Shown: positions 2,999 through 61,497 of the stretch, one piece after another
How the letters are laid out: every line of letters starts with the position of its first letter
Position numbering within the stretch: position 1 is the stretch's first letter
Source of the DNA: Antennarius striatus
Lineage: Eukaryota > Chordata > Actinopteri > Lophiiformes > Antennariidae
Reading direction: 5' to 3'
Assembly (NCBI RefSeq): GCF_040054535.1
Contig: NC_090785.1
Location: 9,971,001-10,035,000, forward strand
DNA: 64,000 nucleotides
Notes under the pieces: model-generated
What the model saw: the letters and a program-made list of their open reading frames with translations, nothing else
Told to the model about the DNA's origin: nothing
Databases searched by the model: none
Translations under genes and position numbers: made by a program

Positions 2999-5900
2999 TA
3001 TTTGCCATCACCATAGTAACTCATGATTGGTAATCGGTTTGGAATTCCCCACAGGATTTCTCCCTCACACACATAAATCGACACACACTCCCACAGATAC
3101 ACCAAAACACACTGGTGATTCAGAAAGTGAAGCTGTTCCTTTGGTGCAGAGAAGAATGTAAAGGGAAAAAGGGCAGAGAGGGACAAACTGAATTGTGGTT
3201 TCCACTGCAAGTTGTGAGTCACGAACAAGAAGGAGGAACAGAGAGGGGAAAAAAAGAGACTATTCTGGGATGGATGCTATAGTAACATAATAAGCAAGGG
3301 GTCAGGTACTTGCAGGGATATTTCAATAGCAATGTCCTGTCTGTGTATAGATAAATATCACTTACCACAAAGTACATTTTACAATAGGATGCCCTGTTCT
3401 ACTTGTACACAAAGTTTGTAATTGATTTTGAAAGAAGATAATTGTTTTCTTTATTGCAGCACTGCAGTCTGACTCAAGACACTTTTGAATTGACTGTACA
3501 ACTGACAGGTCCATTCTCGCTAGTTTTGTCAAAATGAGCAGTTAGTTAGACTCCAGATGTTAGCAGCATGGATTTGATATATTCATGTGGTCAACTGACG
3601 CATTCATGTTGACATTAAATCCATCATACCATCAATCTGTACAGTCTCCTCTGGTCACTCACTGTCAACTGATGATCTGACATATCAAAGAAAGTGATAA
3701 GGTTGTTTGTGAGAATTCCAACTTCCCATGTCTGTGAACCCATCTGTTGTTGCCTCTACTCAAGTAAAAACCTTGTTGAGCTGCACATTCCACTCATAGC
3801 TGTAAAGGTTCCAACAGTCAATTTTAGTGGGGGGATCAATGTATACTACAAACAAGTCAATACATGTTACCACAATCAGTCCTTTCAGTATCACGGTTAG
3901 GGGGAGAACTTTCTGGCTCAAAGAGCTCCTCCACGTTGAAAATACTGGTTTTTCAACCAAGCAAGAAAGTCCATAAATGTCTTGAAAAGAAATGCAAAAA
4001 TGAATCTAAACTGTCAAACGATCAATATACTCTTTATAAACATAGTATCAATTGACAAGGGACAAACTTCATAGCAAAATGGAATGGGTTTGTGATGAGA
4101 GTATTTATTGGGTCAGTGCCCAACCACAAAAAGTGATTACAAAATCACTGTAACTTTAATGTCTGATTTCCCCAAGTCAGTGCTGAACACTAATAGCAGT
4201 CAACTAGCAATCATCTATAGGCTTCTGAACTGCAAAAAGTTTATCAGATTTACTTTATATTTTATTGATGTTTGTGTTTTAAATGGTAGTCATAGCAGTG
4301 CATAGTTTAGTTTTGCTGTAGTTTCACAAGATCACTCCCTTTGCCCCACCTCCAGATTCTAGTAACATGAGCCAGAAATAAGTCTGGGGTTTCATGTGGA
4401 AAAGTGCAGGGGCTGACTGTTTTCCCTCTGCCATAACTCTCGTCTCCCCTCACACATTCCATTTAGCTCACATTGGCAACCTTCGGGCAGGACAACACAC
4501 TTATAACTGACATAGAATATCTTTTCTTAACAATGACTGTCCCGTTGGAACTTATAGATTCTTCTTGCAGGCATTATCTTGTCTCCCTCTGCTCTCCTTT
4601 TTTTTTTCTTGAGCAGACTCACCTTTGACACCTCATGCCTCCCTCCCCCCTTCATTCCAGTCCAGTACTAAATTACTATGTTGTGCTTAGTGACACAAAG
4701 AAATGTGAAGCCCTTTCTCATTTAAGTCCACCACTGTGAACAAATTCCCATTACTTGAGAACAGCAATTAAGATCCAAAGGTCACTTTTTCTTCCTTAAT
4801 AGAGACAAATGTCAGGATATATGAAGAGGAACTTCCATCACAGATTAACACTTTTGTGTTTTAATCACACAGTCACTTCTTATATGGATCCCTGCCTGCG
4901 TTCAGTAGCATTCAGTCCCTTGGGTCTTACCTCATATGCAAAGATTGACACTCAAGGTAAGGCAGCCCTGAAGTGCTGAGTAAGGATCAGATTTCCTGCT
5001 CCCATTCCTTTTGCCCAAGTTTTCTGTGTATATAACCGAGATTTCAGCCCAACCCCCAAACAAGGGTCTAAGAGAACGGACGGGACTGGGATGTGTCTGA
5101 CATTTGTTCCCATCACCAAGAGATGCTACAAACACTAGCAATGTTTATGCACTCTTACACTTATGTAAGAGAGTTGTAAACTTATTTCAAGTGGGAGAAA
5201 ATAACTATCAAACAATATTGTGGTCCATAGATGCAGACTAAAAGTCTGTGTGTGGCTCTGAAGGTCTCTTTAATCAGTCCAAACATCAAATTCAGAGATT
5301 CTTTAGGGAAAACATAGGATTTCAGCTTTGGACTCCCCGATGACAAGGTCTTCACCTCCCTGGCCCTCCACCAACCAACGTACTCTTTTCCAGATGTGTG
5401 GCTTGAACCGCCAGATGCTTAGCACATGCATGCCATGCCTTAGGCTTCAATGAGGGGGCTTGCAACTACAGGGACCGTATGTGAGGTAACAATGCATTCT
5501 CTCTTTGTTTTTCCATTGAAAACACTCAACAATGAAACTGCTTTAAAGAACTCCCACCCTTATGCATCAACATCAACATAAAAAAATGTCCAATGAGCAA
5601 GTACAGAGAGAGCAAGAAAGGAAAAGTAGTTGTGGGTGTGTGGCCAGGAGAAAAATAAAGAACAGGGGAGGAGCAAAGTTGGCAGGGCTGGAAGACAGAA
5701 TGTTGCTGTTGGCATTAATTCTGGTTATTGTTCTCATGGCATGCCTTTGCTGAGCCATTAAACACTGAAGTTACTAAACACAAAGACCAGAAGACATAAG
5801 GAATAGCATAAAAGTGTGTTCTAACATTACACCTTGTTCGCATGTAAGGTGGCTTGTGTAATACCGCTCCTTCAGCAACAAAAGGGTTGGCAGTTTGTGA

Positions 5901-7350
5901 AACTGTTAACTGCTTGTGTGAACCTGGAGTTATTTGCTAAAATTTGATACCTGTTGTGGGAACATTTCCACTATACCACAAAAATATATAAAATGGCTTC
6001 CCTGATTCAAAAGTAGGTTGGAGATTGGCTGCACAAAACTGATCTTGAGTCACAGTAGGTTGGAAAAAATTACACTTCTGACTCACTCAGGGATGAGATT
6101 GCTTCCTTGTGCTTTTTAAAGTGCGCCACAGAAAAGACTAAGCCAGGATCTTAACTTTGGTGTTTGACATACTCAATGTTCAATCTAAAGTTGTGCAACT
6201 TACTTAGAACATTGCAAATGCATTACATACGGTGGTCTAAGTGTCCTTTTCATGTACAACTGCTGCATTTAGATACAAAACAGGACCAAAAAGAAATCAG
6301 CATTACTGTACATAAATGGCAAGAGATCAGACATCCTTTGCTTCACTCTGCAGTTTGGATTCAAGTTTCAATTTTATCAGTAGTACATTTGAATTTAGTT
6401 CATAAATATAAATTATAAGTACTGTAAGGGATGGTAAAATATGAAACTGCACCCCAACTTGAAAGAACAAAAGAAAAATATGAAACACAGGCGTACTTAA
6501 AGTACATGTGTTGAAAATGTGTTTTGGGCTGACTGGTTGGGCAAGCATAAACAATATAAGAAGCACAAATTTAATGCAGACCCAGTTGTTGTCTGCTCAA
6601 ATGAAAACCACAGAACTCAGCCCAGTCATTTTCCCTTTTGGAGGTTTTTCCATGAAGACAACCCACCACCTTTCAGATGGTTCTTTGTCTACCCTCTGCA
6701 GGTATAACATGGTACTTCAGTGTCTGCTAATCATTGCAGTTTAAATGAACTACTGCTCTTGGTAGTAATGTCAAAGTTTGGTGAATTGTTTCTGGATGTT
6801 AAATTTATAATGCCATAGCAAACAGTATAAACAGGGACACAATGTCTGGAATATTCCAGTCACAACGTGGCAGTTAACTGGCGTTGAAACACTGAAGCAC
6901 CACTGACCTCTTCTGGTTAACCATGTACTACTACAACATGGGTGTGGTCAAAAGGCGTATGCTGTCATACATAAAACAAAACATCAGGTACGTTGACTGA
7001 GCATACAAATCACAAATTGTCAAGCTACTCAATTTAAATTCTTTAAACTGGAGGATGTGCGAGTTAAAATCATGCAGAAAGTTATTTTGTGCAGGAACCA
7101 CTATCGAAAACATTAACTGAATATATATTTTTATTTTACATACTAGACTAATCCCCGAAGGGAAATTGGTGGCACTCTAGTCAAATCACATGCATATAGA
7201 GCATGTTAGTATGTACAGGCCCTGAACACTGAACACACAAACACACACAAGGGGCCTTTACGCATGCAGTGGGAGGTATAGTGGTGGGCAGTTCCTGCTT
7301 GGTGCACCCAAATAAATCAAGTCAGACAAGACATAAAATCCCAAAGATGG
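2999..7350. other. Intergenic DNA downstream of eef1g, no gene recognised
   Basis: No gene recognised. Several short open frames are present, for example 5562-5753 (plus), which ends in a hydrophobic run, and 4932-5141 (minus). None has similarity, splice context or upstream signals that I can support. A motif near 7150 (AATCCCCGAAGGGAAATT) resembles the tail of a fish retroposon. Confidence 0.45.
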
Positions 7351-7365
7351 CATTGTGGAAAATGC

Positions 7366-7371
7366 TTTATT
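7366..7371 (-). terminator. Probable eef1g polyadenylation signal
   Basis: TTTATT on the plus strand reads AATAAA on the minus strand, about 160 bases after the eef1g stop codon. This fits the short 3' UTR usual for this gene. The exact cleavage site is not visible. Confidence 0.55.
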
Positions 7372-7532
7372 TTGCAGGTCTAAACAAAACAGTTTTGGGT
7401 CACTGAGATAAATTGTCTTGTAACACCAGATTTCCTGCAACAAAGTAAGCACATGGTGGCTTGAAGTCCATAGGTTTTAAGTACAGGAAAGCAGAAGCTC
7501 AGATTGCTTTTGATCACTGTCCCGAGTGTCTC

Positions 7533-10500
7533 TCACTTGAAGACCTTGCCCTGGTTGACTGCTTTACCAACATGCTTGAACTCTCCCTCCCATGATAAGT
7601 ACTCCTTTACCATGGTCTTGCACTCCTCACTATCTGGATCCAGCTTGCGCCAGTTATATGACTCGTAGTCAATCTGCCAGTCAGGAGACAGCTAGGAGGG
7701 GAAAGAAGAAAAACGTTATTGAACTACTCTAAGGATTAACAAACTGACAATGTCCTACCAGAACCGATACAGATGAAAGATCATCCAGTAGGCATTGGGA
7801 ACACTGCAGAGTGCATTGGGTTGTAAATTTTAAGAACTATTGTGCATGCATACTAAATTGTCAAACTGTACATCTTGTTCTCGGATTTGTGCCCATTGCA
7901 TGAACCAGCCTGTTACTCACTGAAACAGAGACGACTGGGATGAACATGGTCTGAAATTTATCTTCCCCTGTCAGATTAAGACTTCTTGCCACAACTAGAC
8001 ACTGCCTTGCCCAGTGACAGGGGATTGTCCTTTAACTCTCATCATCTCATCATGCCATGTATGGCCCATAATGGAACATTAGATCAAGGCTATATCACTT
8101 ATGCCATATTACATATGATCTCAGTATATCACTATATTAGCCAAAGCAGATGCATCTTAATGTCCAAATGACTAGCCCCACACTTCCCCCTGCAGACACC
8201 ATGTAACATTGCAACCAATGTGCCAGCAAGCCCATTGGAGAATTGACAATGAACAAGTGAGTGCCTTGATGTCAGTACTTTGCATCATTTCTTTATATTG
8301 TGTTCAACCTTTTAGACCCAATTGAAATGTGTTAACCCGTTAAATACTTACAGGGAAAACCAACTCCTGGCCTCTGAATACCCAGACTCCAGAGATGCTG
8401 CTGTCATCGTTGGCGCCAAACAACAGGACACTTGCAAAGGCATTTTTTCTGAGTTTATCCAGTCGCTGGAACATACCTGCAAATTTGCAGTATTGAGACT
8501 TGTCATTTTGGATGCACTTATCAATACAGAAACTCCTCGTTGCTCGCGGTTAATACGTTCCAGAACCACCCACAAAAACAAAATTCTGGGATATAGAAAA
8601 TTTTTATTTGATTATTTATGGTAATTTAAATCTTTATGAACCAGTGTCATGCAGTGAGGTTCACGGCGCTGAGGCACCGACGTTAAAATCAGTTCTACAA
8701 GTCAAAAAAGAGTGGCGTATTTGCCATTAAATTAGCAGCCAGACATTGAAAACAGGTTAAATGCATTATGAGTGTGCCACTCAGTTTGGACATGGCGGGT
8801 TATTTCCTTATCTCAAGTTCGAAGTAAATATTTAATATTGTTTTGATCAACTGGGAGTCCCGTCATAGGTGAGGCTCGACTGCTCGCTGCTGCACTGTGT
8901 GTCACTGTCATACTGATATTAAACCACCATATATCTGTATTACCTTTTCAAAGGACTGAAACTGAAATGATCATTGAAAATGCATTTCAAATATTTTAAC
9001 ACAAAATATTGAAGTAGCAGGACTCACCTGTGATGAGGTTACAGCTCATGAAAATCTGTGAAAGCTCATCATTGAATCTGTAATCGCAATACCAGATTGA
9101 GAACCCCTCACGGTCAAAGTGCTCCCAGAAGTGGGGTATGGCTACTTTCAGTGTGTCCTCATTGGAATACTTTCTCTTGAACTCATCCAGGACAAATGTG
9201 CTTCAAGAAAAAAAAGGAAAAAAGGATGTGGGTCCAAAAAGGAAAGAAATAAATGTTTGAACAGACACATGAAAATCAGACATGTCAAAATCTGGCTAAA
9301 ATTGACATAGAATTCAAGAAATGACATGCATGTAGTTAGGGTAATTCAAAGCATGTTTAAATTTTCACTAAATTCTTTCAGCGGTTTGAGATGTGGATAA
9401 ACCATTCCATAAAAGAGGGTAGGTCTGTAACCTGCATGCCCCCTTCAACAGGGGCTTACAAAACACTAGAAAACTTCCGGTGCCTGATTATAATGTACCT
9501 TTTGACTAAATATATTGTGGATACTCCATACATCCTCTTCAAATTGTAAATATCAATAACTTCATCAAATTTCATGGCCCAATTCATGTAAATAAAAAAG
9601 GTACTGCTTACAAAATTTCAACCCATCACTCACAGGTATAATTCTATACCCATTAGTTACAGGATCAAGTTGGAATCAGTTTGTGCCCACAGCATGAACC
9701 AGCCCATTACTCACTAGAACAGAGATGACTGGGATGAATATGGTCTCAGGTTTCTCTATCCCTGTCAGATTAAGACTTGGTGCCATGACTAGACACTGCC
9801 TTGCCCAATGACAGGGGTTACTTTTTCTTAAAACCACATTTATTTTAAAAAAAAACAACAACAACAACTGATTGATACATACCAGTTTTCAGCAATTCAT
9901 TATGCCATCAAATGCTTTGCATGACTGACCATCAGGCCTACACGCTCCTGGCTGCTTACAAGTACAGGAGACGTACCCCAGGTAATGGGCCGAGGCAATA
10001 ACTTCAATGGCTGTTCCGTAATCGACACAGATTCATACCAAAGCAATTACTTGACTCTACCTCTTTGGAAGGTGTGCAAAAGGGTCCTTGGCTTTGGGCT
10101 CAGCAGCCAAGGCAGCTTCACACTCATCCAGCTGTTCTTCTGGGGCAGGCTTCTTTTCTTCTTTTTTCTTTTCCTTCTCCTTCTTCTCTGGGGTCTTGGC
10201 TGGCTCCTTTGCTCCTTTCTCTCTCTTTGGGGCTTCTTTCTTAGGCTGCATCTCAGCAAATTTCTTGGCTAGAGAAGAACAGAAAACATGGGCTGTTAAC
10301 TTCTTGATCTGACCTTTGCATACTCTGGAACCTCTCTGGCTAGGAGTAATAGATGAATTGTGAATATAACATGATTCATGAAGAATTATCTGTGGAAGTA
10401 CTTCAGATTATCAAGTTATTTTTAAAAATTATCAAATTTTTAAATGTGAGCACTTTATGTTTTCAAGGAGTACCTGGTGTTATAATTATGCCATTAAAAT

Positions 10501-13480
10501 TTTACTTCTTCATATTACAACTTTATATTTTTTTTAAAAAGGATTAATTTAGAGACAAGCCATTAATAAACTTGAATCATAAGTGTGAGCTTTAGAAAGG
10601 CCAAACAAGACAACAGCAAATTGTTTTAAGAACTTGTGCCAAACTAGATGTGACACAAGACCTCTACAATTTCAAAATGACATGCTACTGTTCAGCCATG
10701 TGCTATTTGACTGGTGATGTTATTTGTGTCTCACCATCAAACTGGGCCATCTTTTCACACAGCTTAACCTCTCCAAGGATAGCTTTAAACTGGGGCTGGT
10801 TGATGCAGGTGAGGAACCAGCGGGTCACATTGGGGTAAGGCTGGCGGAAGGAAGGCTCGAGGACCTGCAGGGGACACAGAGGTATTAATGGACTTTTGGA
10901 TGTAATCCTTCAATTATAAGGAGATCAAGTATTACTATTAAAGAGCCGAGTATACTTTTTTTTTTCTTTGACTGATATCAACACCTTGCATGTGTATATC
11001 AAACCTGTTTGTAGAGCCAGAGCATGGAGCAGGCCACAGTGATGTCAGCAAGGCTGACCCTCTCTCCCACCAGGAAGGTGCGTGTGTTCAGATGTTGGTT
11101 CAGCACTGCAAGGGCCTTCTTCACATCCTCCTTTGCCTGCTCTGTAGCCTGGACCGAAACAGTCAAAAGAACATAAGACTACACAATACACTCTACAAGA
11201 TGGTCAGATACCAGGTCTCAGCTAGAGGGTGTTGCACGGTGGCTGGCTAATAACATACATCAGAGCTTCGCCAAAATTAACAAAAAATTATACTTTCAAG
11301 CACTTGACTTTGCCAAAAAAAGAGAGCTGTAAACCTGCTTGTTGAAATGCATAATTCCCAGAGTGGGGAAGACCCATGCGCTGGCTGGAGGGATGATCTC
11401 TGAGTCAGCAAAGCTCACCCACTGCAGAACCTGGGCTGCAGCTTGGGGAGTGGCACCACGCAGGTCATCATTGCTCACTGTAGTTAAAAAGAAACTGTTT
11501 TAAGCTATTTCTTCTCATGCTACCTTCATACATTTGATATTTTGTCTGATAAGAAAAAAATAACACAATATGTAGAAGACGGTCCCCAACATTATGATTG
11601 TGTTAGCTGGGGAAACACTACTGCCTCAAAATTGGAAAATAGTAATGATGAGAGGCGTTTCACATATGCTTACACAGAGCAACACGTGCATTTTATGCTG
11701 ATAACTGAGGTTATAGTTATGAAATTCCCTGAAATAATGTGATTATTTTAGGGCCACATCACCCACCACTATCTTAGACTACATATTCTTGAAAGAAAAT
11801 TTCTTCATATTATCCCTTGAAAATGTAAATCTACAATGTAAATTTATAATGAATGCATTCATTTTCTGAATTAAAAAAAAACTACAGAAATTTTGTTTAA
11901 TCATTCAGTAGATTTATATTATTTAAATGTACCCACAGCATGAACCAGCCTTTTACTCACAAACAGAGATGACTGGGATGAATGTGGTCTCAAATTTCTT
12001 TTCCCCTATCAGATTAAGACATTGTGCCATGATGGGACACTGCCTTGCCCAATGACAGGGGAATAATTTTTCCTCAAATGGGAAGTGTTAACAAAGAAAG
12101 TGTTACTTAATGGCAATTTAAGTAGTTTGGGATGACCATTTTAAAATGACGTGCTACATAGGCATACACTATTTACGCTCAAGCTAAATATTTCAATAAT
12201 GAGCGCAAACTTACAGTAGTGAGCAATGGCATTACTCTCAAACAGACAGAAGCCGTCATCTCCCTGGTAGGCAGGAACCTGCAATCAATAGCAAAATTCA
12301 GAAAACAGCATGTTAAATCATAATTAACATTCAAGTCAAATAGTGTGATGTAAAATCCAAGAACTCCCCAAAGACCGAATAACACTTCATACAAAGCAGT
12401 CCCACATAATCTGTTCAACCACTCCCACTAACCTTGCCCAGAGGGAAATTGTTTAGGAAGGCAGGAGTCCGATTTGTCTGCCCGAAGGTGAAGGCAGGGG
12501 GGTTACTGGCAAGTTTGAGGTTTGCCCCACTGTACTGTGCGGCAATCTGGGCCTTAAAGGCACGCCAGTTCTCTGGATAAGTGTACAGAGTCTGGAAAGA
12601 AGGGAGACAATGCAATTGTTTATCAATCATTACCTCTATATATACACTTTTAACATATCAAATTGTAAATTTCCCAGTTTGGGATCAATAAATGTGTGTG
12701 TGTGTGTGTGTGTGTCTTGGTATTACATTTAACGTTAGGTGGTGGCTCATTAAAGTGAGTCATTCATTTGGCTCTACAGTGTAGATCTGCATCATATTAG
12801 ATATATATTGTTATACCCGGTAAGAAAAAGCATTGTGATACACAGTGAGCAAGTACTATGCTGGCCCTTGCAATACTTTAGATTTCCGATGTTAGCAAAG
12901 ATTGATGCCATTTACATCAAGATGCTCCACCAGTGGGAAATGGAGATTTTAAAGCCTATGTTCTACCATGGATAAATATTCCTGGGTAGAAAAGTACGAA
13001 TAAAATTTAAAGCATTTCACGTGGCGTTTAGCTTTCCTTACTTACATGCTAACTAACCTTAACGTTAGCTGTCACCACTAACAATAACCTTATTGCTGTC
13101 AATTGACACGAGTTACCCTTTGGACTACATAACGTCAATTGAAGTACAGGCATTTTGCAAAAATCATGAAATAAGTTTCCATCCAACTTGGAAATGGTAA
13201 AAAGGTAACGTGGCACGATCCCGGAGCCTCACCATGGACAGGCGGAATTCAACGGTTGCTACGTCAGGGTAGCCAGAACTCACGTCAATTCGAGTGCACT
13301 ATGAATTAAAATCTTCAAAAATGAAATAAAAGACAGCTATCTAAAAGCCCGATTGCATTACTTAGCAACAAAAGTATTCAACAGAAGTGCAGATGGCCAT
13401 GATATTCAACGGAACAGCGTGAAAGTCATAGAACGCACTAAAACTAGTGTTCTCTCCATCTTACTTACCCCTGCCGCCAT
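7533..13480 (-). CDS. eef1g: Elongation factor 1-gamma
   Basis: Subunit of the eEF1B complex, which recharges eEF1A with GTP during translation elongation; the gamma subunit is a structural scaffold in the cytosol. Ten coding exons in transcript order: 13469-13480, 12433-12591, 12215-12278, 11335-11477, 11005-11148, 10735-10864, 10061-10268, 9028-9200, 8352-8476, 7533-7691. They join in phase to give 438 residues (human 437). The N-terminus is MAAG followed by [13 protein letters not shown]. Residues about 1-82 are the thioredoxin-like and 87-215 the helical part of a glutathione-transferase-like region. Residues 219-275 are a Lys/Glu-rich linker (exon 7), and about 276-438 form the conserved C-terminal domain ending NQGKVFK. 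All introns are GT-AG. Introns 3, 7 and 9 each contain an H/ACA snoRNA on the same strand. Exon 1 carries only four codons, a common layout for highly expressed ribosome-related genes. Confidence 0.97.
7885..8025 (-). ncRNA. Box H/ACA snoRNA, copy A (eef1g intron 9)
   Basis: Two-hairpin RNA of about 141 nt on the host-gene strand. The 5' hairpin closes with a 9-bp stem, CCCCTGTCA with TGACAGGGG. The H box AGATAA follows. The 3' hairpin has lower stem CCAT/ATGG and upper stem CCAG/CTGG, and an ACA box lies three bases from the proposed 3' end. H box and ACA are each 14 nt from their pocket. The 3' pocket arms GTTCATC and TTCATGC complement GCAUGAA-U-G-GAUGAAC of 28S rRNA in full. The 5' pocket arms TTGGGCA and AATC fit GAUU-U-C-UGCCCAG. 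Such RNAs bind dyskerin and guide pseudouridylation in the nucleolus. I do not assign a SNORA name. Confidence 0.82.
8026..8351. other. Remainder of eef1g intron 9, nothing recognised
   Basis: AT-rich intron sequence between snoRNA copy A and the exon at 8352-8476. I see no other element. Confidence 0.4.
8520..8965. mobile_element. Diverged copy of a TA-flanked MITE family, interrupted
   Basis: In eef1g intron 8. It begins with a CTCGTTGCTCGCGGTTAATA-type end, then GTTCCAGAACC and GGTAATTTAA. This is the same order as the 13787-14126 element and, inverted, the 35666-36048 element. After about 8642 the match breaks off. It resumes near 8912 with GATATTAAACCACC and a diverged TATCTGTATTACC stretch, as if about 270 bases of other DNA were inserted. 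The outer ends are too diverged for exact borders. Confidence 0.5.
9679..9819 (-). ncRNA. Box H/ACA snoRNA, copy B (eef1g intron 7)
   Basis: Second copy of the same snoRNA, about 141 nt. The 5' stem is CCCTGTCA/TGACAGGG, the H box AGAGAA, and the ACA box is followed by AAC. The lower stem of the 3' hairpin is CCAT/GTGG, a U-G wobble where copy A has U-A and copy C has C-G. The right 3' pocket arm TTCATGC is identical in all copies; the left arm is ATTCATC, one end base different from copy A. H and ACA are again 14 nt from the pockets. The RNA is presumably excised from spliced eef1g intron, as is usual for vertebrate snoRNAs. Confidence 0.82.
11935..12063 (-). ncRNA. Box H/ACA snoRNA, copy C (eef1g intron 3)
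   Basis: Third copy, about 129 nt. The 5' stem pairs CCCCTGTCA with TGATAGGGG. The changed base gives a G-U wobble on the minus strand but an A-C mismatch on the plus strand, which argues for the minus (host) strand as the RNA. The H box is AAAGAA, 14 nt after the pocket; GTACA supplies the ACA box. The 3' lower stem is CCAC/GTGG. The guide arms are ATTCATC and TTCATGC for the 3' pocket, and TTGGGCA and AATC for the 5' pocket. Confidence 0.8.
12663..12715 (+). repeat. Retroposon-tail motif with TG microsatellite
   Basis: TTTCCCAGTTTGGGATCAAT followed directly by AAATG and a (TG)n run. A near-identical motif, with CTGT units, is at 21413-21461. Teleost LINE and SINE copies often end in such a GGGATCAATAAAGT tail with a short tandem repeat. 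It lies in eef1g intron 1. Confidence 0.5.
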
Positions 13481-13600
13481 CTTCAGGACGAGAGAAAGGA
13501 GGAACGACAGCGTGGTGACGTATTTACAGGGGCTCGACGTACGCGCACCCTTTCAGCGTGCGCGTTCATGTTTTGCTTTAATTTTTTTACATCCCGCGAA
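13481..13600 (-). promoter_or_regulatory. eef1g promoter / 5' UTR with 5'TOP-like pyrimidine tract
   Basis: Directly upstream of the eef1g ATG the minus strand carries a 15-base pyrimidine run, TTCCTCCTTTCTCTC (13490-13504), about 10 bases before the start codon. Translation-factor mRNAs typically begin at a C within such a tract (5'TOP) and are controlled by mTOR and LARP1. The region is CpG-richer than its surroundings. The start site is inferred, not seen. Confidence 0.6.
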
Positions 13601-14899: not shown

Positions 14900-18865
<3,966 letters not shown>

Positions 18866-22300: not shown

Positions 22301-23118
22301 CTCCGTTGTTGTACCAAATCCTCAAACTTAGCATTTTGTTCTTTTGTAAATATGTTTTTCAATTTGACATTAATTTAGTGTCTGACGTCTCCCAGGCAAT
22401 TTATCCAAGGCAGAACGTGAGCTGATCGTAGTTGCCACCAGTGTCCAAAACAAGTGTCTTTACTGTGTGGTCTCCCACAGTGCATTGCACCGCATTTACT
22501 CCAAGAATCCCACTCTTTGTGATCAGGTAAAATCTTTGATTTCAATACATGCCTCTGATTTTCTTACAATGTGACACAGTACCTGAAGTCATAACATAAA
22601 TTAAGTTACTTATTTCAATGAGAAATCTCATTAGTGTATGATAACTGTCATTTAGTTGACTAGAAGTTACTGCCAGGCAAATGTTAACTAACAGCAAGTA
22701 TTTCAGAAAGTGACCAAATTGTTCCTCGGTCCTTGGGCGATTTTTTGCGACATGAGCATATAAGGAGTTCTAATTTATAATTAATAGAAATATGTTTTAG
22801 TGAATAAACAATGAATTCCTTACTTCTACCCAGGTGGCTGTTAACTATGAGAATGCAGAGCTGTCGCCTCGGGAGCGTGCAATGCTGGATTTTGCAGTTG
22901 CTGTGTCTCGCAGTGAGACTCTAACAGAGCAGCATTTCCAGGCCCTAGAAGATGCGGGCTTTGACCGTGAGGATGCCTGGGACATTGCTGCCATTGCTGC
23001 TTTCTTTGCAATGTCCAACCGGCTTGCCCATCTCACCGACATGAGGCCAAACTTGGAATTTTATAATATGGGGCGGGTACCGAGGGAAAAGAGCAAGGAG
23101 GGAGCGAAAAAGGAATAA
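19393..23118 (+). CDS. AhpD-like (carboxymuconolactone decarboxylase family) peroxidase-related protein, probably mitochondrial
   Basis: Five coding exons, 19393-19443, 20729-20893, 20988-21087, 22396-22526 and 22834-23118, join in phase to 243 residues. Residues about 1-42 are rich in Arg, Ser and Leu and poor in acids, ending RHFSTPP, like a mitochondrial presequence. Residues 112-138 carry the AhpD catalytic pattern: Glu114, 11 residues, Cys126-x-x-Cys129, three residues, His133. Mycobacterial AhpD has the same spacing (Glu118, Cys130, Cys133, His137). The closest type I recognise is the bacterial 'peroxidase-related enzyme' family (ERELI...C.YC...H). Likely role: thiol-dependent reduction of hydroperoxides; substrate and reductant are unknown. 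The start is the first in-frame ATG after an in-frame stop at 19333. I know no mammalian counterpart with this motif; only the distant sestrin fold is related. The C-terminus is Lys/Glu-rich. Confidence 0.85.
21413..21461 (+). repeat. Retroposon-tail motif with CTGT repeat
   Basis: CAATTTCCTCTGGGATTAAT then AAAGTGTCTGTCTTTCTGTCTG, in intron 3 of the AhpD-like gene. It is a diverged match to 12663-12715 and typical of fish LINE/SINE 3' tails. Confidence 0.45.

Positions 23119-36289: not shown

Positions 36290-61497
<25,208 letters not shown>

Follow-up and report, generated by a model that had tools for sequence, protein, structure and literature searches.

What are three related segments, each in a different intron of the translation-factor gene eef1g and all on the strand of their host, and which rRNA positions could they serve? 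A first-pass annotation of a 64,000-nucleotide stretch of the genome of Antennarius striatus (hereafter the window) had described them as copies of one box H/ACA snoRNA, a class of stable RNAs that associate with dyskerin, NOP10, NHP2, and GAR1, with two predicted targets in 28S rRNA. The analysis presented here makes it very probable that the three segments are intron-encoded SNORA48 genes having the equivalent of human 28S position 3797 as the target of their 3' pocket.

The host coding region occupies positions 7533-13480 of the minus strand and is made up of 10 exons with AG/GT borders, whose joined open frame of 438 amino acids shows the Pfam domains EF1G (E 4.6e-47) and GST, as expected of eEF1G. 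Its last exon has a single match in the genome. A pyrimidine run, CCTCCTTTCTCTC, lies 5' of the start codon; the TOP-type promoters of snoRNA host genes show such a run as well. In zebrafish, eef1g is found among the genes having two types of transcription start, and the accessible part of the same article treats snoRNA host genes separately, without naming eef1g as one of them (PMC6954239).

Copy A (7885-8025), copy B (9679-9819), and copy C (11925-12063), all on the minus strand and about 140 nt long, are located in introns 9, 7, and 3, at 326, 241, and 151 nt from the 5' splice site and at 193, 478, and 447 nt from the 3' splice site, respectively; each is identified by its match to Rfam family RF00554 and by its intron placement. 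BLAST comparison within the window gives pairwise identities, over 132-138 nt, of 86% (A-B), 84% (A-C), and 87% (B-C), and the next-longest matches to the copies elsewhere in the window are of 11-26 nt. A direct-repeat search over eef1g (40-nt minimum) also returns a single family with three copies. The description of three related segments in different introns on the host strand is therefore borne out (introns 3, 7, and 9; 84-87% identity). One boundary has to be amended. Copy C had been placed at 11935-12063, which cuts off the ACA box, and both the alignment and the Rfam match reach 11925; because a segment starting at 11935 has no ACA box, the end was corrected to 11925. The copy ends given here assume that the RNA terminates 3 nt after ACA.

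With this correction for copy C, the order hairpin, H box (ANANNA), hairpin, ACA box is observed in all three copies. The H box corresponds to columns 63-68 of alignment A2 (AGATAA in copy A, 7958-7963, minus strand) and the ACA box to columns 136-138 (7888-7890 in copy A, 9682-9684 in copy B, and 11928-11930 in copy C, minus strand). Both boxes are intact in the three copies, and the variation of the H box is confined to two N positions of ANANNA. H/ACA pockets generally lie about 14-16 nt above each box, and the 14-nt distance that had been read for both boxes is recovered in 3/3 copies (columns 49 to 63 and 122 to 136). The H/ACA structure was written by hand from the same three sequences; 97 of its 99 cells are standard pairs, vs. 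34-46% when the partners are slid by 1-3 columns, a control biased in favor of the structure since the latter was drawn from these very sequences. One stem position is left unpaired in copy A, and likewise one in copy B. The pairing-preserving stem changes noted earlier are all present, namely U-A, U-G, and C-G at one position of the 3' stem and a G-U elsewhere in copy C. Pairs changed on both sides are found at columns 2-62 of the 5' stem (U-A/A-U) and at columns 80-130 (C-G, U-A, U-G), and with three sequences the covariation falls short of significance, the observed value being reached by 101 out of 500 shuffles. Free-energy folding of the minus strand is weak, with z values of -1.28 for A, -1.72 for B, and -1.85 for C (11935-12063); shuffled sequences fold at least as well in 24/200, 11/200, and 9/200 cases, respectively (again 11935-12063 for C), and the minimum-energy fold of copy B differs from the H/ACA form. 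An antisense reading was discarded, since on the plus strand the structure loses 4 pairs in A, 4 in B, and 5 in C. A covariance model, R1, gives the copies 166-171 bits on the minus strand, values that are high by construction because the copies themselves built the model; the best plus-strand score is 10.5 bits, and at the copies themselves there are weak overlapping plus-strand matches (8.0-10.4 bits).

Among the lines of evidence examined, the best structural support comes from the full-length match to the SNORA48 (ACA48) covariance model, RF00554. At gathering thresholds, an Rfam search of the window gives 0 matches. At an E-value threshold, a search of positions 7300-13600 (6.3 kb) with 4227 families aligns the three copies to positions 1-135 of the 135 of the RF00554 model, with 37.6 bits for copy A (E 5.6e-5), 33.7 bits for copy B (E 5.4e-4), and 26.5 bits for copy C (E 0.03), all E values being for 6.3 kb. 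None of them reaches the gathering score of 50 bits. No other family among the 4227 covers the copies; the remaining four of the seven matches (FopS, SCARNA7, OmrA-B, and DAOA-AS1_2) lie outside them, below their gathering scores, and were set aside. Searching Rfam H/ACA families with the segments, a check proposed from the outset, thus brings out SNORA48 end to end in 3/3 copies, below the gathering score. Because the alignment to the model is full-length, the copies are regarded as divergent SNORA48 relatives despite these scores. Judged by sequence, the RNA is hence such a relative rather than a new guide, and the family itself is ordinary.

The genome-wide search with RF00554 (548 Mb) took 41 of 41,254 initial candidates on to scoring and ranks the three copies first among four matches, with E values of 0.0012, 0.011, and 0.63. 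The remaining match (22.3 bits, E 6.6, locus L007 on contig C6) was taken as due to chance. At E 10, RF00554 also has matches in six of the 14 microbial genomes used as controls, 0 of them over the cut-off. In human, SNORA48 has EIF4A1 as its host and is assigned to 28S position 3797 (PMC6466398, as far as its accessible text goes), whereas the fish copies, three in number, are in eef1g. No further SNORA48 locus, such as an EIF4A1-hosted orthologue, was found among the 41 of 41,254 candidates scored, and a DNA search with the SNORA48 consensus missed even the three eef1g copies and hence has no power to find a second locus.

To which uridines do the two pockets correspond? All uridines (about 2250 per test) of three 3043-nt loci carrying 28S-like fragments from the same genome were scored as targets, the fragments being diverged pieces and not a working rRNA gene. 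An exact copy of the 28S stretches used as queries was searched for in the assembly and not found; diverged 28S rDNA fragments (L008, L009, L010, and L139-L143) are present inside the large contigs C7 and C5. In each of four tests (both pockets, two versions of the arms), none of 200 shuffled guides scores as high as the real one. The arms of the 3' pocket are UUCAUC, preceded by G in copy A and by A in copies B and C, and UUCAUGC. The target proposed for this pocket, GCAUGAA-U-G-GAUGAAC, stands up to scoring: its uridine ranks first in the 28S-like loci, with no mismatch to the arm of copy A. The pairs number 14/14 with the arm of copy A and 13/14 with that of B and C, the best site being in fragment L010. 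The copy A arms are identical to the SNORA48 consensus (GUUCAUC, UUCAUGC), and the 3' guide arms of B and C differ from it at one base; devoid of the seventh pair of the left arm, B and C have -4.9 kcal/mol vs. -8.5 for copy A. In human 28S rRNA, position 3797 is 100% Psi-m (PMC6182160, in the part available). Its yeast counterpart, 25S-2314, is guided by snR86, and the yeast positions and guides named in the first-pass annotation, 2191 for snR32 and 2314 for snR86, agree with the available text of a published account (PMC8307265).

The 5' pocket is formed by the arms C/U-UGGGCA and AAUC. The predicted site GAUU-U-C-UGCCCAG again holds the top-ranking uridine of the 28S-like loci, with no mismatch. 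Pairing is 11/11 in all copies, with one G-U in B and C. The right arm accounts for four pairs and, alone, for 0.0 kcal/mol; the left arm can be extended to nine pairs, two of which cost pairs of the lower stem. Apart from one C/U change that preserves pairing, the arms are invariant among copies; guide nucleotides are variable at 2/25 positions vs. 31/116 for the others, a difference that is not significant (Fisher p 0.066). The exact 5' site is kept in L008 and L009 and the exact 3' site in L010 and L142. The two predicted sites are 123 nt apart in L009 (positions 1505 and 1628) and 121 nt apart in L010, and the spacing in L009 equals both 3797-3674 in human and 2314-2191 in yeast. Human 28S 3674 is 99% Psi (PMC6182160); a 2012 table matches it to yeast 2191 and gives its guide as "unknown" (PMC3542256), and in yeast 25S-2191 is guided by snR32 (PMC8307265), each according to the portion of the source available. 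The positions predicted here are thus the same two that snR32 and snR86 serve in yeast. The likeness is one of positions, and the yeast guides are two separate RNAs, whereas here one RNA carries both pockets. Later human guide catalogues (Kehr 2014, snoRNA Atlas, snoDB) may already assign a guide to 28S-3674. Position 3674 is absent from the main text of PMC10227372 and PMC10454564, and in PMC8482273 and PMC8629011 it appears within reference identifiers only.

The 5' pocket of the eef1g copies is therefore put forward as a predicted guide for the 3674-equivalent site, an assignment that we consider fairly probable. The alternative, in which the copies guide the 3797-equivalent position only, the 5' match being a relic or a coincidence and another RNA guiding 3674, is somewhat unlikely. 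It agrees with the accessible account of human SNORA48, for which 28S-3797 is the only target given (PMC6466398), and with the report, in the part seen, that strong predicted guide pairings can be inactive in cells (PMC8522698). The family consensus bears on it as well. With its 5' pocket, placed by eye, read as CUGGGUA and UAUC, the consensus forms 10/11 pairs at the 3674 site, the mismatch being a U-U adjacent to the target, whereas the AAUC of the copies in place of UAUC allows full pairing. The 3674 site is still the best of the fragments for the consensus, though with a margin of a single point, and its score is equaled anywhere in the fragments by 59 of 1000 shuffles; at the 3674 site alone, 1 of 20000 shuffled guides does so, a figure that can be used since the copies of the window had already singled out this site. 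Against a single target stand the 11/11 pairs of the 5' pocket, which 0/200 shuffles match in either version tested, the extension of the left arm to nine pairs, even if two come at the expense of the lower stem, and the invariance of the arms but for one C/U keeping the pairing. That SNORA48 ancestrally shares the second target is plausible in view of the consensus pairing, which by itself is weak evidence.

Starting from the H/ACA anatomy of the copies, their relatedness, their intronic position on the host strand, and the complementarity of their pockets to two sites, a mechanism can be proposed. As for other intronic H/ACA RNAs, the RNAs would be trimmed from the spliced eef1g introns and would then bind dyskerin and its partners; by the same analogy, we infer processing, dyskerin binding, and modification of 28S rRNA for the copies. 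The 3' pocket would direct isomerization at the equivalent of human Psi3797 and yeast Psi2314, and the 5' pocket at the equivalent of human Psi3674 and yeast Psi2191, so that one guide RNA would serve two uridines lying 123 nt apart. Finally, three copies in a translation-factor gene may raise the dose of the guide together with that of the translation machinery. This dosage role is held less firmly than the assignment of the 5' pocket. Taken jointly, the claims that SNORA48 is a vertebrate guide with two targets, that its 5' pocket guides Psi3674, and that the eef1g triplication raises its dose form a tentative proposal, about which we are slightly more doubtful than confident.

A different view is that not every copy is a functional SNORA48 gene, some being decaying duplicates, and that the triplication has no dosage role. 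Copy C has the lowest score against the model (26.5 bits), the 3' pocket of B and C forms one guide pair fewer, A and B each show one unpaired stem position, and unexpressed snoRNA copies are discussed in the literature (PMC10234308, in the part available). We nevertheless regard this view as unlikely, since the boxes are intact in 3/3 copies, 97/99 stem cells are paired, and the flanks have fully diverged whereas the RNA has not. The conservation of the RNA between such flanks makes all three copies look constrained.

How did the copies arise? Two DNA searches of the 548-Mb genome, made with a tool that skips very common words, give three matches with copy C at E 0.001 and three with copy B at E 10, all in eef1g. 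The idea that the RNA had multiplied within the gene is upheld, as all genome matches to the copies are the three eef1g segments. The finding that would have spoken against a guide RNA, a repeat scattered over many unrelated loci, was looked for in the same searches, with 0 copies outside eef1g; the reading as a dispersed repeat was therefore rejected. No alignment is obtained for the flanks, the RNA being 84-87% identical; together with the restriction to eef1g, this indicates that the copies are local and that either they are old or their flanks have turned over. The flanks inspected show no A-tail, and the longest direct repeat flanking a copy within 40 nt measures 6 nt and is found at copy C only; none of the marks of a snoRNA retroposon (A-tail, target-site duplication, many dispersed copies) is thus seen. 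The similarity stops at the RNA ends, as would be expected from RNA-mediated copying, but membership of a dispersed repeat or snoRNA retroposon family is highly improbable in view of the three eef1g copies being the only matches in 548 Mb and of the lack of A-tail and of longer flanking repeats.

A 16-nt invariant pattern of the copies was also compared with sequence collections, where it occurs in 6 viral and 119 prokaryotic stretches (80 of the 119 listed); these were taken as chance occurrences. No title among the literature matches listed announces SNORA48 in eef1g, which does not prove its absence from print, and SNORA48 does not appear among the matches listed for literature on SNORA48 and fish. 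In an article on chicken snoRNAs (PMC2653536), the six terms sought are all absent from the main text. The SNORA48 family and its 3797 target are already known; the new element is a three-copy member hosted by eef1g, an example of snoRNA duplication inside one translation-factor gene. The finding is largely ordinary, and its value may lie in proposing a precise candidate for guiding Psi3674 of human 28S rRNA, a position that is 99% modified and shared with yeast.

Other features of the window were recorded. The translation of 17633-18061 (minus strand) resembles what we take to be an exon of the RNA polymerase II subunit RPB7, and a Pfam search with it gave no match. Two stretches on the plus strand, 15266-15544 and 59669-59941, share the protein-like motif RN.YI.GTAHV and are presumably retroelement fragments; the translation of 59669-59941 has no match in Pfam. 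An open frame at 22804-23118 (plus strand) matches Pfam CMD (carboxymuconolactone decarboxylase / AhpD-like; E 4.7e-5), an enzyme family associated mainly with microbes. Finally, three open frames at 36290-41063 (minus strand), which by eye we assume to be nicotinic-receptor-like, match Cys-loop receptor domains (Neur_chan_LBD, E 2.3e-24; Neur_chan_memb, E 3.7e-13 and 3.3e-8).
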